From positions 106,343,981-106,407,980 of the forward strand of contig JALMGJ010000002.1 of assembly GCA_023362775.1 (NCBI GenBank): DNA of 64,000 nt. Reading direction: 5' to 3'. Positions 3,440-52,375 of this stretch are shown here, one piece after another. This stretch comes from Charina bottae (lineage: Eukaryota; Chordata; Lepidosauria; Squamata; Charinaidae). The notes under the pieces were generated by a model. The model worked only from the letters and a program-made list of their open reading frames with translations. It ran no database searches and had not been told where the DNA came from. Position numbers and translations under genes: made by a program. How positions within the stretch are numbered: the first letter of the stretch is position 1; each line of letters opens with the position of its first letter.

Positions 3440-3645
3440 GTTCAATTGTGTCAAATTCTCGTAGACTGCCTGGACAAATCCCTGCAGTTTTCTTCGCAAG
3501 GTTTTTTGGAAGTGGTTTACCACTGCCTTCTTCCTAGGGCTGAGAGAAAGTGAGTGGCCCAAGGTCATCCAGCTGGCTTTGTGCCTGAGGCAGGACTAGA
3601 ACTGATGGTCTCCCGGTTTTTAGCCTGACACCAAACAGGCTCTCT
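3440..3645 (-). mobile_element. MIR-like tRNA-derived SINE
   Basis: The diagnostic core GGCCCAAGGTCATCCAGCTG, followed by a CTAGAACT box and a CTCCCGG...TAGCCTG end, matches the reverse complement of MIR/CORE-type SINEs. There the RNA polymerase III promoter head lies at the right and the LINE-related tail at the left. Two further copies of the same family lie at 42667-42930 and 59154-59330. The copy is diverged, and no target duplication was found. Confidence 0.65.
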
Positions 3646-4960
3646 ATTAGAAGTAATACATGATGTTAATAAGCTTTCTGCTTGGAATGTGGCAGAGTAA
3701 AGAGTAGGGCTATATAAAGTATTTGAATGAAGTGTTTTCCAATCTGCAGAAGCATGCAAGAAACACCTATTTTTTAAATATAAAACAGCTGTGCCTTTTG
3801 CAAGATTTGCATGGCTGTTTCATATATTGCTCCAAGGTGTCTCTGCCTATATGGCTGTGCACATACATCTATTTTGCAAAGTGAAGCAAAATGGCTGTGC
3901 AATACGTATGCATACAAGATAGCTGAGGATAGCTTCTGAAACAGCCATTGAAGCCTTGCAAATGATACAGCTTATTAAATTATTTCAGGGGGGAAAAAGT
4001 ATTGTATACCATCTGTTTTCAGGGCACTGCAAAGTCCTAGTAAATAGGAATAAACAGAGATAGAACTTTAGCCAGATGTGAAGGATTTTTTAAAAAAAAT
4101 AATTTATCAGTCTCACCTTATTTGAGATTGCAATAATAGGGAAGCAGACCTAATTTTTAAGTTACAGTCTGTTGCGGTATATTTTTTATGGATTCTTGTT
4201 GTTGCTGTTGTTGTCATTACTCTTCCCACTTTTTGATCTCAACTACATATGCAAGCATTTAGGACTTTGGGAACCTCTAAATAGAGCTCCAGTATATTGC
4301 AAGACTGTAGAAAGCTTTTGAAAGAAGTGCTTTATAAATTTGGAGTAGGGCTTTGGGAAACTTTCAAATGTTTTCCAAAGACCTACATAGTGAATCTGCT
4401 TTGGCTATATAATGATGTCTAGCTAAATTTGCATGCTGTGCTGGCCTTTGATGCAGATATGCTGGTACAAATATTGGAGAAAGTGATGGAAATGATAATA
4501 CCATAGTGCCTTATTTGTATTCTCTATTATACCATCTACTGGGAGATTACAAGAGATAAATGTAACAGTTATGCCTCTTAATCAGGTGAATTCTTGTGGA
4601 ATAATTGAGACTCAAACTCTATAATAATTGTTATTCTATTATTATTTATTAATATTATTAATTAATTATATTTGACTTTCGGTGTCTTATGAATATTTTA
4701 TTTCAACAATCTTTTTTTTTTCTCAGTAGAGTTTTCTACATTATGAATAATTGTAATTTAGCTACTTGAAACAGCAGTATTTGTTAAAAGATATACACAC
4801 TCAACTGCAATGGTACATAATTTATTTATTTAAAGTATTTTTCATTTGAGCCACTGAGAGTAATTTTTGATTTCACTGGCATACAAATATGTTTTATACA
4901 TAACAAAGTAATAAATAATTTATTATTAATAATTATTATTAATAATAATTAATATTAAAA
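3646..4960. other. AT-rich stretch without recognised features
   Basis: No coding or repeat family is supported. A short GTT run lies near 4195-4215, and ATT-rich low complexity lies around 4620-4680 and 4910-4960. Confidence 0.5.
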
Positions 4961-7850: not shown

Positions 7851-9157
7851 TCCTAGTGCCTGCCTTGTGCCTTCCTGCCTCCAAACCTGCTGTGATTCCG
7901 CGCAGGTCCTAGTGCCTGCCTTGTTCCCTGATGTAAGAGAGTGTTGCGAAATGATGCCCTGCTGTAAGAGTGTGTTGCGAAATGATGCATGTCTAAAAAG
8001 TGTGTCACCAACATGAAAAGTTTGGAAAGCTCTGGATTTGTGCACCTGTAGTCAAAGATTCTACTGTAACAGGATGTCCAAAAAAATAGCGTCTTGCCAT
8101 GGACTAGCTTTGCCAAGCTTTCCACAACTATGGATCACTAAATAAATATTTCTGCATGAATGCCTACGACAGCATGCCCTGCCTGCCTGTGTCAGATACA
8201 AACTTCCAATAAACTGCACAGCTGGATGGAAGATAGCGCAACAAAGTGGGCGAAAAATGATACGGCTAATGATCATGGATGCCCAACTCAGATTAAACAA
8301 ATATCAACACACAATAGACAGCCTCAAGAAACAACTAGAACAGACTATGAATGAATCAACATGCTGACTACTACCATCAAGACCAAATCACTGAGACAAG
8401 CAGAAAAAAGGAAAGCTAAACTCCAAACTAAACTACTAAAGTTAAACCCCAGAAACAAAGAAGTACTGGAACCGGAATGGGTGGTCAACATGTCCAGCCA
8501 TCCATTATCCACTGCAGAATGCAATATCCTACAGAGAGGCGAACAAATTAGAATTCTTTGCAGCTTTAGAAGCAGCATTGAAAACTACAACACTTACTAC
8601 AGAAACCCAAGAGAATGTAAGACAGATAATCATACCACAAACCAGAAGGACATGGAAACAGAACCAACTGAAAGCAGAGGACAGAGCAGCACTCAAAAAC
8701 CTAAAGATGGACCAAATTATTATCATCCTCCCATCAGACAAAGGCCACACCACTGTCATTATGGACAGATCGCAATGTATACAAAAAGCCAAAGACTTAC
8801 TTGAGGACAAAGAAACCTACACCCCAGTAAACACCAATCCCATACAGAAACTGGACAACCAGGTCAAAAGAATCTTCAACGACCTAACCAAGAATGGTCA
8901 AATCACAAAAGGAGAACAGAGGCGGATGAAAAGCAGTGGACCCATCATCCCATGCTTCTATGGATGCCCCAAAATACACAAGCCCGACATATCGCTCCAT
9001 CCAATTCTATCATTACCAGGGACCCCCACATACAACATAGCTAAAAAAACTTACAAGAAAACATGGGCATCTCACAGAGGAAAGTGAATAATCTATCAAC
9101 TCCCCACTACATTGCCTCCAGAAAATCAAAGACCTACAAATAGATGAAGATGAAATT

Positions 9158-9571
9158 ATGGTGTCATTTGATGTCACTGCACTCTTTACATCCATAGACC
9201 CACCACTAGCGATTGAATCCATGGCAGCAGTTCTACTCAACACATCTGACCTAACCATATACACTAAGATCAAAATACCCAGAATCATGGACCTCATCAA
9301 CCTCTGCCTCACCACCTACTTTCAATTTGATGGACAAATATATCAACAAATCAAAGGAACACCTATGGGATCACCACTCTCAGGACTCATAGCAGAGATT
9401 GTAATGAAATGTCTAGAAAGGATAGCACTCCCACGCTTCATCATAATAAAAAAGGAACAACTGGAGGAAACACGTGAAACCATCAACAACATCTTCAAAG
9501 GAATAAAGTTCGCAAGGGAAGAAGAAAACACAAACACACTACGCTTCTTGGACATCCTCATCAGTAGATGA
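9158..9571 (+). pseudogene. PLE family 1 reverse transcriptase core, catalytic box deleted
   Basis: This 137-codon open stretch carries the fingers/palm motifs SFDVTALFTSID (first catalytic Asp) and QIKGTPMGSPLSGLIAEI. It then passes directly from ALPRF to IIIKKEQLEE. In related PLEs, including the intact copy at 14868, a segment with RYVDD stands at this place, so the two adjacent catalytic aspartates are absent. The enzyme could not have copied RNA in this state. The upstream ATG at 9158 is not a real start, because PLE reverse transcriptase is one long frame beginning far upstream. Confidence 0.8.
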
Positions 9572-12284: not shown

Positions 12285-12668
12285 CATAGCATGCTATTTA
12301 AAATGAAGCCTTTCCTGAGTAGATTTGAGATTTACCCCATCCATGTGTTTACTAAGGAGGGAGTCAGACCCCTAATAACTTGTTCTGGCAAAAAGAGTGC
12401 TACTTCCTCCAAGCCTAATTGCAGCGACTTTAAAGCTGTTATTTCCAAGGATGTTATCTCCCCTCTGTCCTTGAGAAGTGGCAACCTGAAAAAAAGTCAC
12501 TTTATGCCTCCTACTCATCAGTGCTCGGTAGAACTATTGGAGTCAAGTTTGATTAACTCCTTCCATACTTTGCCAGACTCTGGGCAAGTGGGCATTATTA
12601 ATAGATTAGATGACTTGAAAGATCTTCTAGAAACCATGCGTAAGGCTGCAAAACCCTTAATAGATGTT
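12285..12668 (+). mobile_element. LINE-A, middle segment
   Basis: The open frame continues LINE-A ORF1 (KPFLSRFEIYPIHVF... to ...AKPLIDV). It is cut at the target site TTAATAGATGTT (12657-12668) by the composite PLE insertion and continues in frame at 17675 with TPTADIKMP. The role is unknown; the segment lies just upstream of the endonuclease region. Confidence 0.65.
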
Positions 12669-12749
12669 TGTCTATGAAGGTTCTCAGTCATCCAGGTGGA
12701 ATTGTCTGTAGCTTGAATCATGTCAACTGGATTTCTATTTTCTTAATGG

Positions 12750-15116
12750 AAAGATAATAGATTTAATTTCTAAAACAGAAACAGGAGGCCAAGTGGGAAG
12801 ATTATCCAAAGTTTGCTTATCCGTAAAATCTTGTTTAGATTTTAAAAAGATATTAGAATAAAAATCCCCCCACACTGAGGCAGGAATGGGAATATCAAAA
12901 TAAAATTTACGTTCTTTCAGTATGCCTGAAACAGCATTCCAAAAGAAGGCTGAATTTGACTCTTTTGCCCAAACTTCCAAATCCGACCATAATTTGGCTC
13001 CATAGGAAGCCTTCTTAGAAGCTATCAGTTTCTTATAATCACGCTTAGCTTTCAGCATATTAGGAAGTTTTTCCCGGATGGGACACTCTCCAGCCTGGCG
13101 CATTGCAGTTCTCAAATGTTTTCTACTAATAAAACATACAGAATCAAACCAATTAGCTCTGACTTGTCTATTCCTCAGATGGGATTTAATAATAAGGAAT
13201 TTTCTCAGAGAACGTCTTAAGTTGTCATAGCAAGTCAAAAAAAATTCTGTGCCTAAGGGCAAATAAGAAATTAAATTTCTCCAGGTCTGGGGCTGTACCG
13301 AATCCAGAAAACTGGATAGTGCTTCAGTATCAACTTTAGCCCATTTAAGTTTTCTATCTTGTCTCACTTCCAGATTTTCAAGAAACCTCTTATCACAAGG
13401 TGATTTTTTTTGAATATCAGATCTCCCTCAGAAAGAGACTAAAATTGTTTGTGATCACTGTCTTCTCCCACCAAGACTTGTATATCTTAAAACATCTCAA
13501 GTTTGTCTCTTGAAACACATATATTATCTAAAACACTACTAGAATTACCTGAATAATAAGTAAAAGGATATATAAAACCAGGATCCCTACCACCTAAAAT
13601 GTGTAAATCGCAATTATAAACCATAGAGACCAGTTGTGAACCTGCAGTATTTTTTTTAATCTCTAGAATGCCAAGGAGGAACAGATAATAAGTAATCTTC
13701 AGGTATATCATCCAAGTAGACAAAATTTTGTAGGGAAGGCCCCACCCTGGCATTAAATTCACCTACCAAAACTATAATAGCTTTTGAATATTTTACCTTT
13801 AGCCTTAAAATTGTCACTTCGAAATTTGTCCATATATTCAGTGAATAGTAAGGAGAAGAGTGAGGTAGAAGATAAACATTCAACAGTACCAATTCAAAAT
13901 TCATAGGAAAATTTAACAATTAGGTGAGAAGATGAAATGTCACTGAGAATCTGTTCTTGGGCTTGCCAGCCCAGCTCTGCCTTGGCTAAAATTGCCAGAA
14001 CTCCAGAAGCCCTCCCTTTGGTCTTAAATTTAGTCACAGGAATATACCATGAGCTAAAGCCTGGTAGATGGATCTGCTCTCTATCCAGAGGCAACCAGGT
14101 CTCATGAAGGGCTATGAGATCAAAACTTATAAAAATATCCACCAGGTCCCCATCCAAAACTGACTTTCCATCCAGCAATATTTGAAGACAATAATAGAAA
14201 ATGATCTGCATACTTGACATTTGAGGATATAGGGAAAGAATTCACATTTACTTGGGAAGGGGCATACATATTTTCCAGTCATTCCACATAAGTAATGTTA
14301 TCTAGCGTTCCATCATGATCAAAAAAGACACATTGATTTATGATGTGCCTGCCTTCTCTTTTGCAAGGTTGCCGGTTAGACTCCAAATGATTTTGAGGGC
14401 CATCAGCCTGTGGCAAAGATACATTTGTAGGTTGGCCCATCGAAGTAGTAACGGAAACCAGAGGAGGAATTAACAGACAGGAGGTATCCTCCTTAGAACG
14501 CAGTTCAACTCCTACTCCAGGGCTTTCTTCTATTTGTTGTTCCACACTAATTAGGCAACCACTCATTTCCCCTGGCTTATTTGTCTCTATTATAGTACTA
14601 TCACTCACTGCATCTGTATGAAAAAGAGTTTTATCAGGGTTCTCAAAAAGGGCATTTTTATGTCAGCAGTTGGAGTAACAACATCTATTAACTGTAGCTT
14701 GAATCATGTCAACTAGATTTCTATTTTCTTAATGGAAACGTTTCGCTCCTTATCCAAGGAGCTTCTTCAGTCTGAGCAAAGTTGGTAAGGGAATCCTAAA
14801 TATATTCCTAGGTAGCTGTGTGACCTTACACCTGGGGCTAGGTCATGGTTATATTGAGATGTAATTTTTAAGTCCTTTTATCATCTAATGGAGGGTCGTT
14901 AAAAACACCATGCTGCTGTTGAGCTTCTGAAATGGTCTTAATCTTCCTAGGCACAGAAGACAACACGGGGAGGAAGATGGGGGAGAGTTTGTGCCTGAGG
15001 CCCCCACCTCTATTCAAGGAAGGATTTTCCAAGTTGGCATAAATGGATTCCTTGACCCCTCTCTCAAACCACCTATCTTCTCTGTCTAAAATGTGAACAT
15101 TAATGTCCTCAAATGA
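12750..15116 (-). repeat. Left arm of 2.37-kb inverted repeat
   Basis: This arm is the inverse of 17250-19616. It holds LINE-A endonuclease and N-terminal RT fragments on the minus strand (12750-14691), then the PLE family 2 3' end (14692-15116). Translated fragments in the two arms are identical except for one residue noticed (T versus M in a QDF.DKQ segment) and where the homology ends. The left edge lies in a short shared TTT(C/T)CATTAA stretch that joins LINE-A to a PLE terminus. Confidence 0.9.
14741..14770 (-). ncRNA. Hammerhead-like core in PLE family 2 3' end (minus copy)
   Basis: The minus strand reads CTGAAGA, a 7-bp stem GCTCCTT/AAGGAGC closed by GGAT, then GAAAC. This is the same arrangement as the inverted partner at 17596-17625. 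PLEs are known to encode hammerhead motifs. One extra A before the stem and weak flanking stems keep this at candidate level. Confidence 0.45.
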
Positions 15117-16883
15117 GTGTCCTTTTTCTTTTAGATGAAGATAAACTGCTGACTCTGGTCCTGTGGTGTTATTTCTCCTGTGTTGTGCCATCCTCCTGTA
15201 CATAGGTTGTTTGGTTTCTCCAATGTAGAGTTCAGAGCACTCCTCACTGCACTGGATTGCATAAACTACATTGCTTTTCTTATGTTTTGGAGTTTGATCT
15301 TTGGGGTGTACAAGCCTCTGTCTCAGTGTGTTGGTGGGTTTGAAATATACAGGTATGTGGTGTTTGCCAAATATCCGTTTTATCTTTTCAGACACGCCAG
15401 CCATGTAGGGAATGACCAGGTTCTTTCGTTTACTCTGAGTCTCAGCCCTATCTGTCGCTGTTTTAGGTCTGGTAGATTTAGATTTGGTGAAGGCCCAATT
15501 TGGATATCCACAGGCCTTCAGGGCTGTTCTCAGGTGCTGATTTTCATTCTTTTTGGAATCCATGGAGGTGGGGATGGTTTCTGCTCTGTGTGACAATGTC
15601 CTGATGACTCCTAGTTTGTGCTGCAGTGGATGGTGGGAGTCAAACATCAGATATTGATCTGTGTGTGTGGGTTTCCTGTAGATCCCTATTTCTAGCTTGC
15701 CACCGGTCCCAATGAGGACTTCACAGTCTAGGAATGCCAGTCTGTTGTCCTTGGTGTCTTCTCTGGTGAAGCTAATGTTGGCATCTATAGTGTTTATATG
15801 GTCCGTGAAGGCCTGTACTTCCTGGGCCTTGATTTTGACCCAGGTGTCATCCACATACCTAAACCAGTGGGTGGGCACCGTTCCCTGGAATGTGTTGAGT
15901 GCTTTCTTCTCCACTTCTTCCATGTATAAATTGGCCACAATGGGTGACACAGGAGAACCCATGGCACAGCCGTGTTTTTGTCTGTAAAAGTCACCTCTGT
16001 ATGTGAAATAAGTGGTGATAAGACACAGGTCCAGAAGATGGCAGATCTGGTTTGGGTTGAGATGGCTTCTCCTTTCCAGGGTGCTGTCCTCTTCTAGTCT
16101 CTTCCTGACAGCGGATAGAGCATGAGTGGTGGGGATGCTGGTGAAAAGGGAGGACACATCAAAGGAGACCATAGTTTCATCTGTATCCAGTTTCAGGATC
16201 TTTGCTTTGGAAACAAATTCTTCCGAATTATGGATGTGGTGTTCAGAGTGTCCAACTAGAGGTGCTAGTATGGTAGAGAGGTGTTTGGCAATGTTGTATG
16301 TTACCGAATTGATGCTGCTGACTATGGGTCGGAGGGGTGTTCCTTCCTTGTGGATCTTAGGAAGTCCGTAGATGCAGGGGATGGCTTCTCCAGGATACAG
16401 ACGGTGGTAGGTAATCCTATCGATGGAGCCATCATGTTCCAATTGTTTCAAACTGTCTATTGCCTTTTTCTTGTAATTGTTGGTGGGGTCTCTTTTCAGT
16501 TTTTCATATGTATGGTGATCCTCCAAAAGTGAGGTAATTTTATTGTGGTAGTCTGCAGTGTTTAGAACCACTGTACATCTTCCTTTGTCAGCAGGTAAAA
16601 TGGTGATGGTTTCATCTTTGCTGAGGGCTGTCAGGGCTCTCCTCTCTTGGACGGTAAGGTTGGGGGGAGGAGGTTGAGCACTGGACAGAGCTGCAGATAT
16701 TTTAAGCCGGAGTTGTTCTGCTTCTTCAAAAGGTGGGTGGTTGTTGTGGATGGCAGATTCTGTGGCTGTAATGAGCTCCACAACCGGAACTTGCTTGGGA
16801 GTGATGGCAAAATTAAGACCTTTGGCTAGGACATCTCTCTCTGGTTGGGTAAGTTCTCTGTCTGAGAGATTTTTCACCCACAT
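14868..16883 (-). CDS. PLE family 2 reverse transcriptase with GIY-YIG endonuclease
   Basis: This 671-codon frame is open a further 121 codons upstream, to 17246, without another Met. The protein is the single-protein PLE polyprotein that copies element RNA and nicks the target. Counting from Met 16883, the blocks are ILPADKGRCTVV (about 96), PCIYGLPKIHK (169), SFDVSSLFTSI with the first catalytic Asp at 242, HGCAMGSPVSPIVANLYM (304) and RYVDD with Asp 345/346. The C-terminal GIY-YIG nuclease is VVYAIQC...ELYIGET (539-556) with the following Arg and His, about 570 residues from the start. A Cys-x3-Cys pair lies between the two nuclease halves. All key residues are present. The frame is truncated at its 5' end by the inversion junction at 17249/17250, so the true start is lost. 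It is probably not expressed as a full protein, but it is little decayed. Confidence 0.9.
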   Translation of the reverse strand: MWVKNLSDRELTQPERDVLAKGLNFAITPKQVPVVELITATESAIHNNHPPFEEAEQLRLKISAALSSAQPPPPNLTVQERRALTALSKDETITILPADKGRCTVVLNTADYHNKITSLLEDHHTYEKLKRDPTNNYKKKAIDSLKQLEHDGSIDRITYHRLYPGEAIPCIYGLPKIHKEGTPLRPIVSSINSVTYNIAKHLSTILAPLVGHSEHHIHNSEEFVSKAKILKLDTDETMVSFDVSSLFTSIPTTHALSAVRKRLEEDSTLERRSHLNPNQICHLLDLCLITTYFTYRGDFYRQKHGCAMGSPVSPIVANLYMEEVEKKALNTFQGTVPTHWFRYVDDTWVKIKAQEVQAFTDHINTIDANISFTREDTKDNRLAFLDCEVLIGTGGKLEIGIYRKPTHTDQYLMFDSHHPLQHKLGVIRTLSHRAETIPTSMDSKKNENQHLRTALKACGYPNWAFTKSKSTRPKTATDRAETQSKRKNLVIPYMAGVSEKIKRIFGKHHIPVYFKPTNTLRQRLVHPKDQTPKHKKSNVVYAIQCSEECSELYIGETKQPMYRRMAQHRRNNTTGPESAVYLHLKEKGHSFEDINVHILDREDRWFERGVKESIYANLENPSLNRGGGLRHKLSPIFLPVLSSVPRKIKTISEAQQQHGVFNDPPLDDKRT

Positions 16884-17249
16884 GTTCTTTTTGTCCTCTG
16901 TGGTCCTGTTGTTGTTGTTCCTCCCAGTGGTTTCTCCAGTTCCTTGTTTCTGCTTGCTGCGAGAAAGAAGAATGTCAAATTTTTTAGTTTGCCTCTCCTT
17001 TGTCTTGTGATGCTGGGCCAGCTGTACTTTATTGCCAAGCTGAATAACTCTATCCAGGATTGGGTCAGGAAGGGTGGCTGTGAGTTCCTGGTGAAGGTTT
17101 TCAAAATTGTATTGCAGGGCATCAATGGTGAAGTGGACTTGCCTTATTCTTTCATTTAGAAGATGTCTTTGTGCCTGCTGCAGGATCTGATCTGCTCTGT
17201 GACCCTTAACTGTAGATTGCAGGCGTAGGCTTGTCGGGATGAGTATTTA

Positions 17250-17674
17250 TCATTTGAGGACATTAATGTTCACATTTTAGACAGAGAAGATAGGTGGTTT
17301 GAGAGAGGGGTCAAGGAATCCATTTATGCCAACTTGGAAAATCCTTCCTTGAATAGAGGTGGGGGCCTCAGGCACAAACTCTCCCCCATCTTCCTCCCCG
17401 TGTTGTCTTCTGTGCCTAGGAAGATTAAGACCATTTCAGAAGCTCAACAGCAGCATGGTGTTTTTAACGACCCTCCATTAGATGATAAAAGGACTTAAAA
17501 ATTACATCTCAATATAACCATGACCTAGCCCCAGGTGTAAGGTCACACAGCTACCTAGGAACATATTTAGGATTCCCTTACCAACTTTGCTCAGACTGAA
17601 GAAGCTCCTTGGATAAGGAGCGAAACGTTTCCATTAAGAAAATAGAAATCTAGTTGACATGATTCAAGCTACAG
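17250..17674 (+). mobile_element. PLE family 2 3' end, plus-strand copy
   Basis: This encodes the end of the GIY-YIG protein (from the VHILDREDRWF region to the stop) and the 3' UTR, ending CAAGCTACAG next to the target repeat at 17675. It is the inverse of 14692-15116. Compared with the terminus at 12669, it lacks the last about 37 bases. Confidence 0.85.
17596..17625 (+). ncRNA. Hammerhead-like core in PLE family 2 3' end (plus copy)
   Basis: CTGAAGA at 17596-17602, stem GCTCCTT-GGAT-AAGGAGC, then GAAAC at 17622-17626. This is the CUGANGA/GAAA core of a hammerhead with a strong stem II. A third copy with a weakened stem lies at 52294-52324. Confidence 0.45.
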
Positions 17675-18998
17675 TTAATAGATGTTGTTACTCCAACTGC
17701 TGACATAAAAATGCCCTTTTTGAGAACCCTGATAAAACTCTTTTTCATACAGATGCAGTGAGTGATAGTACTATAATAGAGACAAATAAGCCAGGGGAAA
17801 TGAGTGGTTGCCTAATTAGTGTGGAACAACAAATAGAAGAAAGCCCTGGAGTAGGAGTTGAACTGCGTTCTAAGGAGGATACCTCCTGTCTGTTAATTCC
17901 TCCTCTGGTTTCCGTTACTACTTCGATGGGCCAACCTACAAATGTATCTTTGCCACAGGCTGATGGCCCTCAAAATCATTTGGAGTCTAACCGGCAACCT
18001 TGCAAAAGAGAAGGCAGGCACATCATAAATCAATGTGTCTTTTTTGATCATGATGGAACGCTAGATAACATTACTTATGTGGAATGACTGGAAAATATGT
18101 ATGCCCCTTCCCAAGTAAATGTGAATTCTTTCCCTATATCCTCAAATGTCAAGTATGCAGATCATTTTCTATTATTGTCTTCAAATATTGCTGGATGGAA
18201 AGTCAGTTTTGGATGGGGACCTGGTGGATATTTTTATAAGTTTTGATCTCATAGCCCTTCATGAGACCTGGTTGCCTCTGGATAGAGAGCAGATCCATCT
18301 ACCAGGCTTTAGCTCATGGTATATTCCTGTGACTAAATTTAAGACCAAAGGGAGGGCTTCTGGAGTTCTGGCAATTTTAGCCAAGGCAGAGCTGGGCTGG
18401 CAAGCCCAAGAACAGATTCTCAGTGACATTTCATCTTCTCACCTAATTGTTAAATTTTCCTATGAATTTTGAATTGGTACTGTTGAATGTTTATCTTCTA
18501 CCTCACTCTTCTCCTTACTATTCACTGAATATATGGACAAATTTCGAAGTGACAATTTTAAGGCTAAAGGTAAAATATTCAAAAGCTATTATAGTTTTGG
18601 TAGGTGAATTTAATGCCAGGGTGGGGCCTTCCCTACAAAATTTTGTCTACTTGGATGATATACCTGAAGATTACTTATTATCTGTTCCTCCTTGGCATTC
18701 TAGAGATTAAAAAAAATACTGCAGGTTCACAACTGGTCTCTATGGTTTATAATTGCGATTTACACATTTTAGGTGGTAGGGATCCTGGTTTTATATATCC
18801 TTTTACTTATTATTCAGGTAATTCTAGTAGTGTTTTAGATAATATATGTGTTTCAAGAGACAAACTTGAGATGTTTTAAGATATACAAGTCTTGGTGGGA
18901 GAAGACAGTGATCACAAACAATTTTAGTCTCTTTCTGAGGGAGATCTGATATTCAAAAAAAATCACCTTGTGATAAGAGGTTTCTTGAAAATCTGGAA

Positions 18999-19784
18999 GT
19001 GAGACAAGATAGAAAACTTAAATGGGCTAAAGTTGATACTGAAGCACTATCCAGTTTTCTGGATTCGGTACAGCCCCAGACCTGGAGAAATTTAATTTCT
19101 TATTTGCCCTTAGGCACAGAATTTTTTTTGACTTGCTATGACAACTTAAGACGTTCTCTGAGAAAATTCCTTATTATTAAATCCCATCTGAGGAATAGAC
19201 AAGTCAGAGCTAATTGGTTTGATTCTGTATGTTTTATTAGTAGAAAACATTTGAGAACTGCAATGCGCCAGGCTGGAGAGTGTCCCATCCGGGAAAAACT
19301 TCCTAATATGCTGAAAGCTAAGCGTGATTATAAGAAACTGATAGCTTCTAAGAAGGCTTCCTATGGAGCCAAATTATGGTCGGATTTGGAAGTTTGGGCA
19401 AAAGAGTCAAATTCAGCCTTCTTTTGGAATGCTGTTTCAGGCATACTGAAAGAACGTAAATTTTATTTTGATATTCCCATTCCTGCCTCAGTGTGGGGGG
19501 ATTTTTATTCTAATATCTTTTTAAAATCTAAACAAGATTTTATGGATAAGCAAACTTTGGATAATCTTCCCACTTGGCCTCCTGTTTCTGTTTTAGAAAT
19601 TAAATCTATTATCTTTTCATTAAAATCTAATAAGACACCCGGTGAAGATTTTCTGCCTCCAGAACTATTCAAGACTTACATGGACTGGTGGGTGTTCTTA
19701 CTAGCAGGATTATTTTCTCCTATAAATAATACTGGTTGTATTCCTGCAGGTTGGGAAGTTGCCATTATTGTCCCCGCACATTAA
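18999..19784 (+). pseudogene. LINE-A reverse transcriptase, N-terminal fragment
   Basis: This 261-codon open stretch covers the thumb-proximal linker and first RT box of LINE-A: Trp-rich LSSFLDSVQPQTWRNL at the start, then SNKTPGEDFLPPELFK and GWEVAIIVPAH at the end, where a stop falls just before the expected KKGD...NNYRP box. That box is readable in another frame after 19784. No Met-defined start is meaningful. The first about 206 codons are duplicated in inverted orientation at 12750-13367. Confidence 0.8.
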
Positions 19785-19893
19785 AAAGGGGATAGAGGTA
19801 ATCCAAACAATTACAGACCTAAATGCCTTATTGAAAATGTATGCAAAGCATCTGTTGAACAAAATTGAAGTTTGGGTTTTGTAGAATAACCTC

Positions 19894-20505
19894 TTGGTGG
19901 AGGAACAAGCAGAATTTAGGCTAGAGTGTTGCTTTACCCTATACCATCTTGTATCAAAGCATTTAAAGATGGGTAAGAAATTGCTTACCGCATTTATAGA
20001 CCTAAGTGTGGCCTTTGACTTGATAAATAGAAATGTCTTATGGAAGAAACTGGCAGATCTAAATATGGATCCCAGACTCCTTTTTCTGGTTAAATCTCTT
20101 TATTCTAATACACAGGTGAAAATTCGCACTGGTGTAGATGGAGCCCTGACTAAGAGTATACCTACTAATGTCAGTGTTAGACAGGGTTGTGTATTAGCAC
20201 CTATGCTTTTTAATCTTTATGTTAATGACTTACCAGGTTTTCTGCATGTGGCAAATACACATATGCCCAAAATCTTTAATAGATTTATTAATATTCTATT
20301 ATATGCAGATGATATGGTTTTATTAGCCCATTCTCAAATTAGCCTAAGAAGATTGCTGCAAAAGCTAAGTTCCTATAGCACTCTCAATACTCTAATTATT
20401 AATAAAAGTAAATCTAAAGTGCTGGTATTCAGTAAAAAAAATGTGAAATACAATTGGCAAATAAAGGGAGAATCCATTGAACAAGTGAATTATTATACCT
20501 ATTGA
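19894..20505 (+). pseudogene. LINE-A reverse transcriptase, catalytic fragment
   Basis: These 203 codons contain EEQAEFRLE, the first catalytic block AFIDLSVAFDLINR, VRQGCVLAPMLFNLYVNDL and the active-site block LLYADDMVLL with both aspartates, then LIINKSKSKVLVF. The frame stops at 20505, and the following thumb and C-terminal parts are scattered over other frames to 21599. The catalytic residues are preserved but the protein is broken on both sides. The segment is outside the inverted repeat, so it exists once. Confidence 0.85.
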
Positions 20506-51856: not shown

Positions 51857-52375
51857 TCATAGCAGAGATTCTAATGCAGAAGACTAGCAGAACGCATCCT
51901 CAAACACCAACTAGCAGTCAGAAGACATGTTGAAAACTCCTTAATCTCACAACACATGGACAGACTTAACCATACTTTCAACTGGGAAACTGTGAGCATA
52001 TTAAACCAAGCCAAATCCAAAAATGCTAGAGAATTCCTGGAAGCTTGGCACTCAGACAAAGCAGCCATCAGATCACTTCCGGGTGCTGAAAATGTCGGTG
52101 CGCTGAACCGAGCTCTAAGATTAAGACCATTTCACAAGCTCAACAGCAGCATGGTAATCTTAACGATCCTCCTTTGGATGATAAAGGGACTTAGAAATAA
52201 ACATCTCAAATAACCATGACCTAGCCCCAGGTGCAAGGTCACACAGCCACCCTAGAAACATACTTAAGGATTCCCTTACTAACTTTGCTCAGACTGAAGA
52301 AGTTTCTTGGATAAGGAGCGAAACATTTCCACTGAGAAAATAGAAATCCAGTTGACATGATTCAAGCTACAGATT
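51857..52375 (+). mobile_element. Chimeric PLE fragment (family 1 joined to family 2)
   Basis: 51857-52068 matches PLE family 1: CTCATAGCAGAGATT (RT region) jumps directly to the GIY-YIG part at GCAGAAGACTAGCAG, an internal deletion compared with 9390-10050. A 46-49 base CpG-bearing joint (about 52069-52117) follows. 52118-52375 then matches the family 2 3' end, including a hammerhead-like core (52294-52324) and the end GATTCAAGCTACAG. No protein could be made. Confidence 0.75.

Follow-up and report, generated by a model that had tools for sequence, protein, structure and literature searches.

PLE insertions are described as head-to-head copies with a tail at one end, none at the other and a short target-site duplication (PMC3846280, PMC11167929, in the parts available). 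Among the closest described systems to the locus reported here is PAc, a Poseidon PLE of Anolis carolinensis, which in vitro cuts both DNA strands and extends them from a pair of neighbouring start sites, with no strand difference in start-site use (PMC11167929). In the accessible sections of that account, mutation of the PAc hammerhead leaves in vitro insertion unchanged and no RNA-seq reads begin or end at the hammerhead cut. PLEs with captured host DNA are already known: in the rotifer Adineta vaga, according to the portions of the report at hand, Pen1_Av carries 0.9–1.5 kb of host DNA between the 3'-terminal pLTR and the rest of the element (PMC3846280). Inverted templated copies joined through one inverted-repeat junction and one microhomology junction are described for human DUP-TRP/INV-DUP rearrangements (PMC4352052, in part), and in yeast the fold-back inverted insertions at double-strand breaks form as one end folds back and is extended and the other captures the product (PMC11724301, in part).

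We describe a PLE insertion in a window of 64,000 nt of Charina bottae DNA (contig JALMGJ010000002.1) that carries an inverted copy of its own downstream flank. The element resembles PAc in its RT and GIY-YIG protein, in its tail and no-tail ends, which for PAc derive from two RNA start sites on strands that are both cut and extended, in a candidate hammerhead motif and in the tandem units of its family, and differs in the flank capture, which is absent from the PAc account as far as it was available. It shares with the Adineta Penelope elements inverted terminal units of which one is tailed, a short target-site duplication and, as for Pen1_Av, a spacer of host DNA separating the 3'-terminal piece from the body of the element; in the available text on Pen1_Av the source of the spacer is not identified, whereas here the spacer derives from the flank downstream of the element itself, in inverted orientation and accompanied by the opposite PLE end. 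The junctions likewise match the human pattern, with the 425-nt PLE ends as inverted repeats and TTAATGRAAA as microhomology, but the human events described are of megabase scale between pre-existing repeats, while the repeats at this locus are formed by both ends of a single new insertion. The yeast insertions reported measure 2 to ~150 bp, against 1.94 kb plus 425 nt here, and are not attributed to a retrotransposon. We found no printed precedent in the open-licence literature, as far as it was accessible, for a retrotransposon insertion with its own flank copied in inverted orientation. The locus is an unusual product of a young PLE family, its parts known and their combination with an identified donor undescribed as far as searched.

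Architecture of the composite insertion

The insertion is a composite block of 5006 nt (12669–17674) with a PLE 3' end pointing outward at both sides (Table 1), and a first-pass annotation of the window had given the same block, 12-bp direct flanks and outward termini. Its dominant feature is an inverted repeat of 2374 nt per arm with no indels and three mismatches, far beyond chance, which leaves a spacer of 2.1 kb between the arms and bears out the 2.37-kb, indel-free repeat annotated earlier. The mismatches lie at 12749, 12823 and 14804, the first of them a PLE versus LINE base within the junction match. The LINE arms (12750–14691 and 17675–19616) are equal in length and differ only at 12823. 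The 84-nt tail-side piece is separated from the PLE body by 1.94 kb of the right LINE flank in inverted orientation (12753–14691), and the left arm continues past the inner LINE/PLE junction (14691/14692) for 425 nt into the PLE. The outer junction sits in TTAATG(G/A)AAA, complement of the TTT(C/T)CATTAA match where it had already been placed, with the switch from PLE to LINE between 12749 and 12752. The string spanning it occurs once in the 1.8-Gb assembly.

Table 1. Features of the composite insertion, in window coordinates.
Feature	Position	Strand	Remark
Target-site duplication, left copy, TTAATAGATGTT, 12 bp	12657..12668	+	exact repeat; joined flanks crossed by LINE paralogues
PLE tail, 37 nt, the 3' extension of one insertion end	12669..12705	-	encodes part of PLE protein N-terminus
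Tail-side PLE piece, 84 nt	12669..12752	-	final 2–3 bases common to LINE
Left arm of inverted repeat: LINE copy (12750–14691) and PLE end (14692–15116)	12743..15116	-	
Target-site sequence, inverted copy	14680..14691	-	reverse complement of TTAATAGATGTT
Long PLE copy, without tail, 5'-truncated	14692..17244	-	
PLE open frame, 792 codons stop to stop	14868..17246	-	RT and GIY-YIG domains
Filler at head-to-head junction, 5 nt	17245..17249	.	no match in 39 other listed full-length copies
Inverted PLE piece, 425 nt, without tail	17250..17674	+	
Hammerhead-like motif, predicted cut after 17629	17596..17629	+	identified by eye from the anole PLE description; none in Rfam
Target-site duplication, right copy	17675..17686	+	exact repeat of TTAATAGATGTT
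Right arm of inverted repeat: PLE end and original LINE flank (17675–19616)	17250..19623	+	

The block interrupts an old LINE (14 matches in the LINE clade comparison, 28–55% identity), and one LINE reading frame stays open through the join when the flanks are put together. Eight LINE paralogues (L003–L010) were fetched from the same 1.8-Gb assembly; L008 and L010 end short of the insertion site and the other six (L003, L004, L005, L006, L007 and L009; 86–94% identity) cross the joined flanks without interruption, so the 12-bp repeat is a true target-site duplication. Elsewhere, the flank of another PLE insertion at C1:6.15 Mb (L051, 139–152) exactly matches 14 nt of this locus's LINE target site (E 0.002) at a distance of 10 nt from the PLE end, by chance or through target preference.

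In the open frame of the long copy both RVT_1 (43 bits) and GIY-YIG (24.1 bits) exceed the Pfam cut-offs, and the protein is 57–67% identical to nine aligned vertebrate PLE proteins. Compared by eye with P0004 it is missing ~50 N-terminal residues, part of which are encoded by the 37-nt tail at the left end. A single ORF with RT and GIY-YIG endonuclease, inverted head-to-head copies, a tail at one end and a short target-site duplication are all Penelope/Poseidon characters; tandem units (pseudo-LTRs) occur in the family, as full-length matches spaced 2710 nt in C170, C223, C251 and C201, and not at the locus itself. When the genome was searched with the long copy, the best 40 of 1425 candidates were scored and comprised the locus copy and 39 others. 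At least 39 other full-length copies, some tandem and some head-to-head, are therefore present at 100% identity as rounded by the tool, with ~6–7 differences per copy in 2553 as estimated from bit scores, and the PLE family is accordingly young. The long copy resembles the others only as far as 17244. The 84-nt tail-side piece found no match as a genome query in a search that skips very common words, and two PLE patterns had 0 matches in viral contigs.

Other PLE sequences are also present. An older truncated copy of the same family, 90% identical and with a no-tail end, lies at 52117–52373 of the window and was excluded from the end counts because it has a single recognisable end. Two ORFs of another, diverged PLE-like element were recognised by eye at 8446–9571, the second scoring 28.2 bits for RVT_1, just under the Pfam cut-off of 29.6. 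Of the 39 genome matches to the cDNA-end pattern described below, 12 in C216 and 3 in C247 form clusters that share GGAAAT, perhaps as local arrays of a PLE variant.

Paired end types in other insertions

Ten other insertions were followed through both ends: L011 (a and b), L012, L017, L023, L028, L032 and three more at C79:9.51 Mb (L045, L046), C79:22.20 Mb (L057–L059) and C68:11.64 Mb (L060–L062), the long ones partly by means of the match table of the genome search. L011 and L012 were chosen for visible tails and are a biased sample; L017, L023, L028 and L032 come from 200 kb sampled without preselection. The arrangement is head-to-head in all ten, and nine of them combine a tailed outer end with a tailless one, the exception being L011b, which pairs a tail end with an end 14 nt short. 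Target-site duplications measure ~10–15 bp by eye. The composite locus has the usual pair, with a tail at 12669 and none at 17674, and an insertion seems to draw on both RNA start sites, with each strand using one of them. A separate regularity appears in head-to-head junctions of long copies: in 4/6 of them (L034, L036, L042 and L052) one cDNA ends at unit 2615–2634, which is 25–44 nt beyond the tail and would fit a block to reverse transcription close to the next start site.

An inverted copy of the insertion's own flank was found in 0/12 other traced insertions, namely the ten above with L084 and L085. L011, L012, L084 and L085 were checked by self-comparison, and the remainder are free of non-PLE inserts above 18 nt apart from L028, in which 115 nt of AT-rich repeat (3638–3752) lies between two PLE cDNAs, each with its end near the hammerhead.

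The left cDNA end and the hammerhead-like motif

The left PLE piece halts at 12749–12752, within two bases of the predicted hammerhead cut, which, from the motif as read by eye and the anole description as far as available (PMC11167929), would give a cDNA ending at 12750. The hammerhead core and stem II are recognisable by eye. Rfam returned no match for 12400–20000 at E up to 1, and so no hammerhead, and six weak matches for 17540–17680 at E up to 10, none a hammerhead. Folding of the 105-nt PLE end was no better than that of shuffles (z 0.07), and the 51-nt hammerhead core gave z -0.70 with stem II present in the fold.

Ends at the same point were sought with a pattern consisting of an exact PLE match to 12752 followed by a departure. 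Among 39 genome matches, 26 depart with T, which is probably a CpG change, and were not scored as ends, although one turned out to be the partner end in L078. The other 13, including the composite locus itself, depart with A or G, and in 11 of the 12 from elsewhere (L072–L083) the departure is a real cDNA end or turn-round; the sole non-end, L076, is a point change within a palindrome, and in L073 the exact end base is blurred by a AAACGTTT palindrome. From this recurrence the 84-nt left piece looks like a complete short cDNA rather than the stump of a longer one. The pattern demands a match two bases beyond the predicted cut and thus does not fix the exact cut position; a version ending two bases earlier gave 13 matches, which were counted only. 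Within a 40-nt hammerhead zone lie 8/20 cDNA ends (p 2e-10 with the whole unit as reference and 2e-4 with the last 460 nt), a descriptive statistic only, as the zone was set after viewing the data and L011b was counted on both sides.

Non-PLE DNA follows a comparable cDNA end at two further loci. In L082/L084 the cDNA end runs into 196 nt lying between two cDNAs, and in L074/L085 it is followed by 18 nt of filler resembling the insertion's own target. The L084 insert (1432–1627, at C110:55.09 Mb) is flanked by PLE cDNAs that end near the hammerhead, at unit 2486 and 2507, and has a 20-nt direct repeat near both ends; its donor was not found within the 2.1 kb fetched.

The inner end as a copy of the right end

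The inner PLE end (14692) and the right end both lack the tail, stop at the same terminal base and have T at unit positions 2485 and 2530 (PLE 2490 and 2535). Among 39 other covering stretches, T occurs at 2485 in three (L054–L056) and at 2530 in four (the same three and L053, there at its last aligned base), the rest having C. The shared no-tail stop and the two rare variants thus identify the inner LINE/PLE junction as a copy of the right end. Origin of the T variants between insertion and capture was considered and rejected, since L054–L056, fetched as the closest matches to the right end and differing from it at other sites, carry both variants, which therefore look inherited. The left PLE end has C at unit 2530, so it derives from another template than the inner and right ends.

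Discussion

We prefer a model in which the flank was captured during PLE insertion or its repair, by fold-back or template switching, to one of later rearrangement, and give it a probability of about 0.6. The model builds directly on the observed structure, the duplication, the two end types, the relation of inner to right end and the recurrent end site. A Poseidon-type PLE would have entered the old LINE at TTAATAGATGTT, where both cut strands would have primed reverse transcription at two places on the RNA, the left with the tail and the right without; the two end types are observed here, and priming from two strands is borrowed from the published anole PLE. The left cDNA ends after 84 nt near the hammerhead, which may be the cause of the stop. 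The right PLE end and 1.94 kb of adjoining LINE may then have been copied inverted, either by self-primed fold-back of the long right cDNA or by a growing strand that switched onto the right flank, and the inverted product would have been joined to the short left cDNA at the small TTAATGRAAA match.

These two routes differ in what they require. The long PLE reads into the inner LINE copy, whereas plain fold-back predicts reading into the right flank, so the fold-back version would additionally require the 2.37-kb arms to recombine once afterwards and invert the 2.1-kb spacer. If instead the left strand switched onto the right flank, the orientation seen would arise without a flip, provided that a flank strand lying 1.94 kb from the break was accessible. 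Since recombination between the arms could flip the spacer, its orientation does not decide between them and costs the fold-back version a step. What places the capture within the insertion is that the left piece ends where other cDNAs of the family end, and the inner junction, as a copy of the right junction, supports template switching or fold-back at that stage. The first-pass annotation had proposed such a process with host flank as the captured DNA; the process is favoured on these two grounds, but the captured unit is not host flank alone and comprises the right PLE end with 1.94 kb of LINE. Junction microhomology was considered as proof of mechanism and set aside as weak, with 54/415 PLE 10-mers reaching a 9/10 match in 3 kb of flank. 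The usual pairing of tailed and tailless ends, the non-PLE DNA after comparable ends in L084 and L085 and the two-strand activity of the anole PLE in vitro also speak for capture during insertion. Counting against it, the locus is a single case among the insertions traced, the spacer is not oriented as plain fold-back predicts, Rfam detects no hammerhead, and the inspected ends were chosen by a pattern that runs two bases beyond the predicted cut.

A secondary rearrangement would explain the same structure from a normal insertion with a long tail-side PLE on the left and the 425-nt inverted copy on the right. A replication or repair fork would later have jumped from one inverted PLE end to the other, produced a backward copy of the right end with 1.94 kb of LINE, and rejoined the left PLE end through microhomology, in the manner of human DUP-TRP/INV-DUP events. 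This accounts for the spacer orientation with no flip, a homology junction within inverted repeats paired with a microhomology junction is the signature published for such events (PMC4352052, in the part available), and arms that differ at just two internal sites suggest that the copying was recent. We nevertheless consider it unlikely, because the return point must hit the recurrent cDNA end by chance, and the 40-nt hammerhead zone, picked post hoc, makes up only ~9% of the last 460 nt. Less probable again is an artefact of assembly or library, the main alternative in the first-pass annotation, in which a wrong path or a chimaeric molecule at the inverted PLE ends made the inverted arm. Such ends are a natural spot for a wrong path, and the outer-junction string is unique in the assembly. 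The assembly, however, comprises 1.80 Gb in 278 contigs, with a contig of 249 Mb here, which suggests long-read assembly, and a simple read fold-back would not leave a 2.1-kb single-copy spacer. The arms also differ individually from their relatives: at 14804 the left arm is unlike 18/18 other stretches, and at 12823 the right arm is unlike 4/7 paralogues, the three closest included, and the same as 3/7.

The locus bears on the integration route of PLEs and the purpose of their hammerhead ribozymes. Because the origin of the captured spacer is identified at this locus, it constrains the order in which the strands were copied, and cDNA ends recurring near the hammerhead are a broader lead. A tentative extension, which we regard as doubtful, is that hammerhead-cut PLE RNA templates one of the cDNAs, that the resulting short end provokes flank-copying repair by fold-back or template switch, and that PLE insertion in this way generates long inverted repeats of host DNA. 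If real, the locus shows that PLE-type elements are able to build long inverted repeats; host DNA arranged in a young inverted repeat of this length might, speculatively, be a source of instability or of double-stranded RNA.
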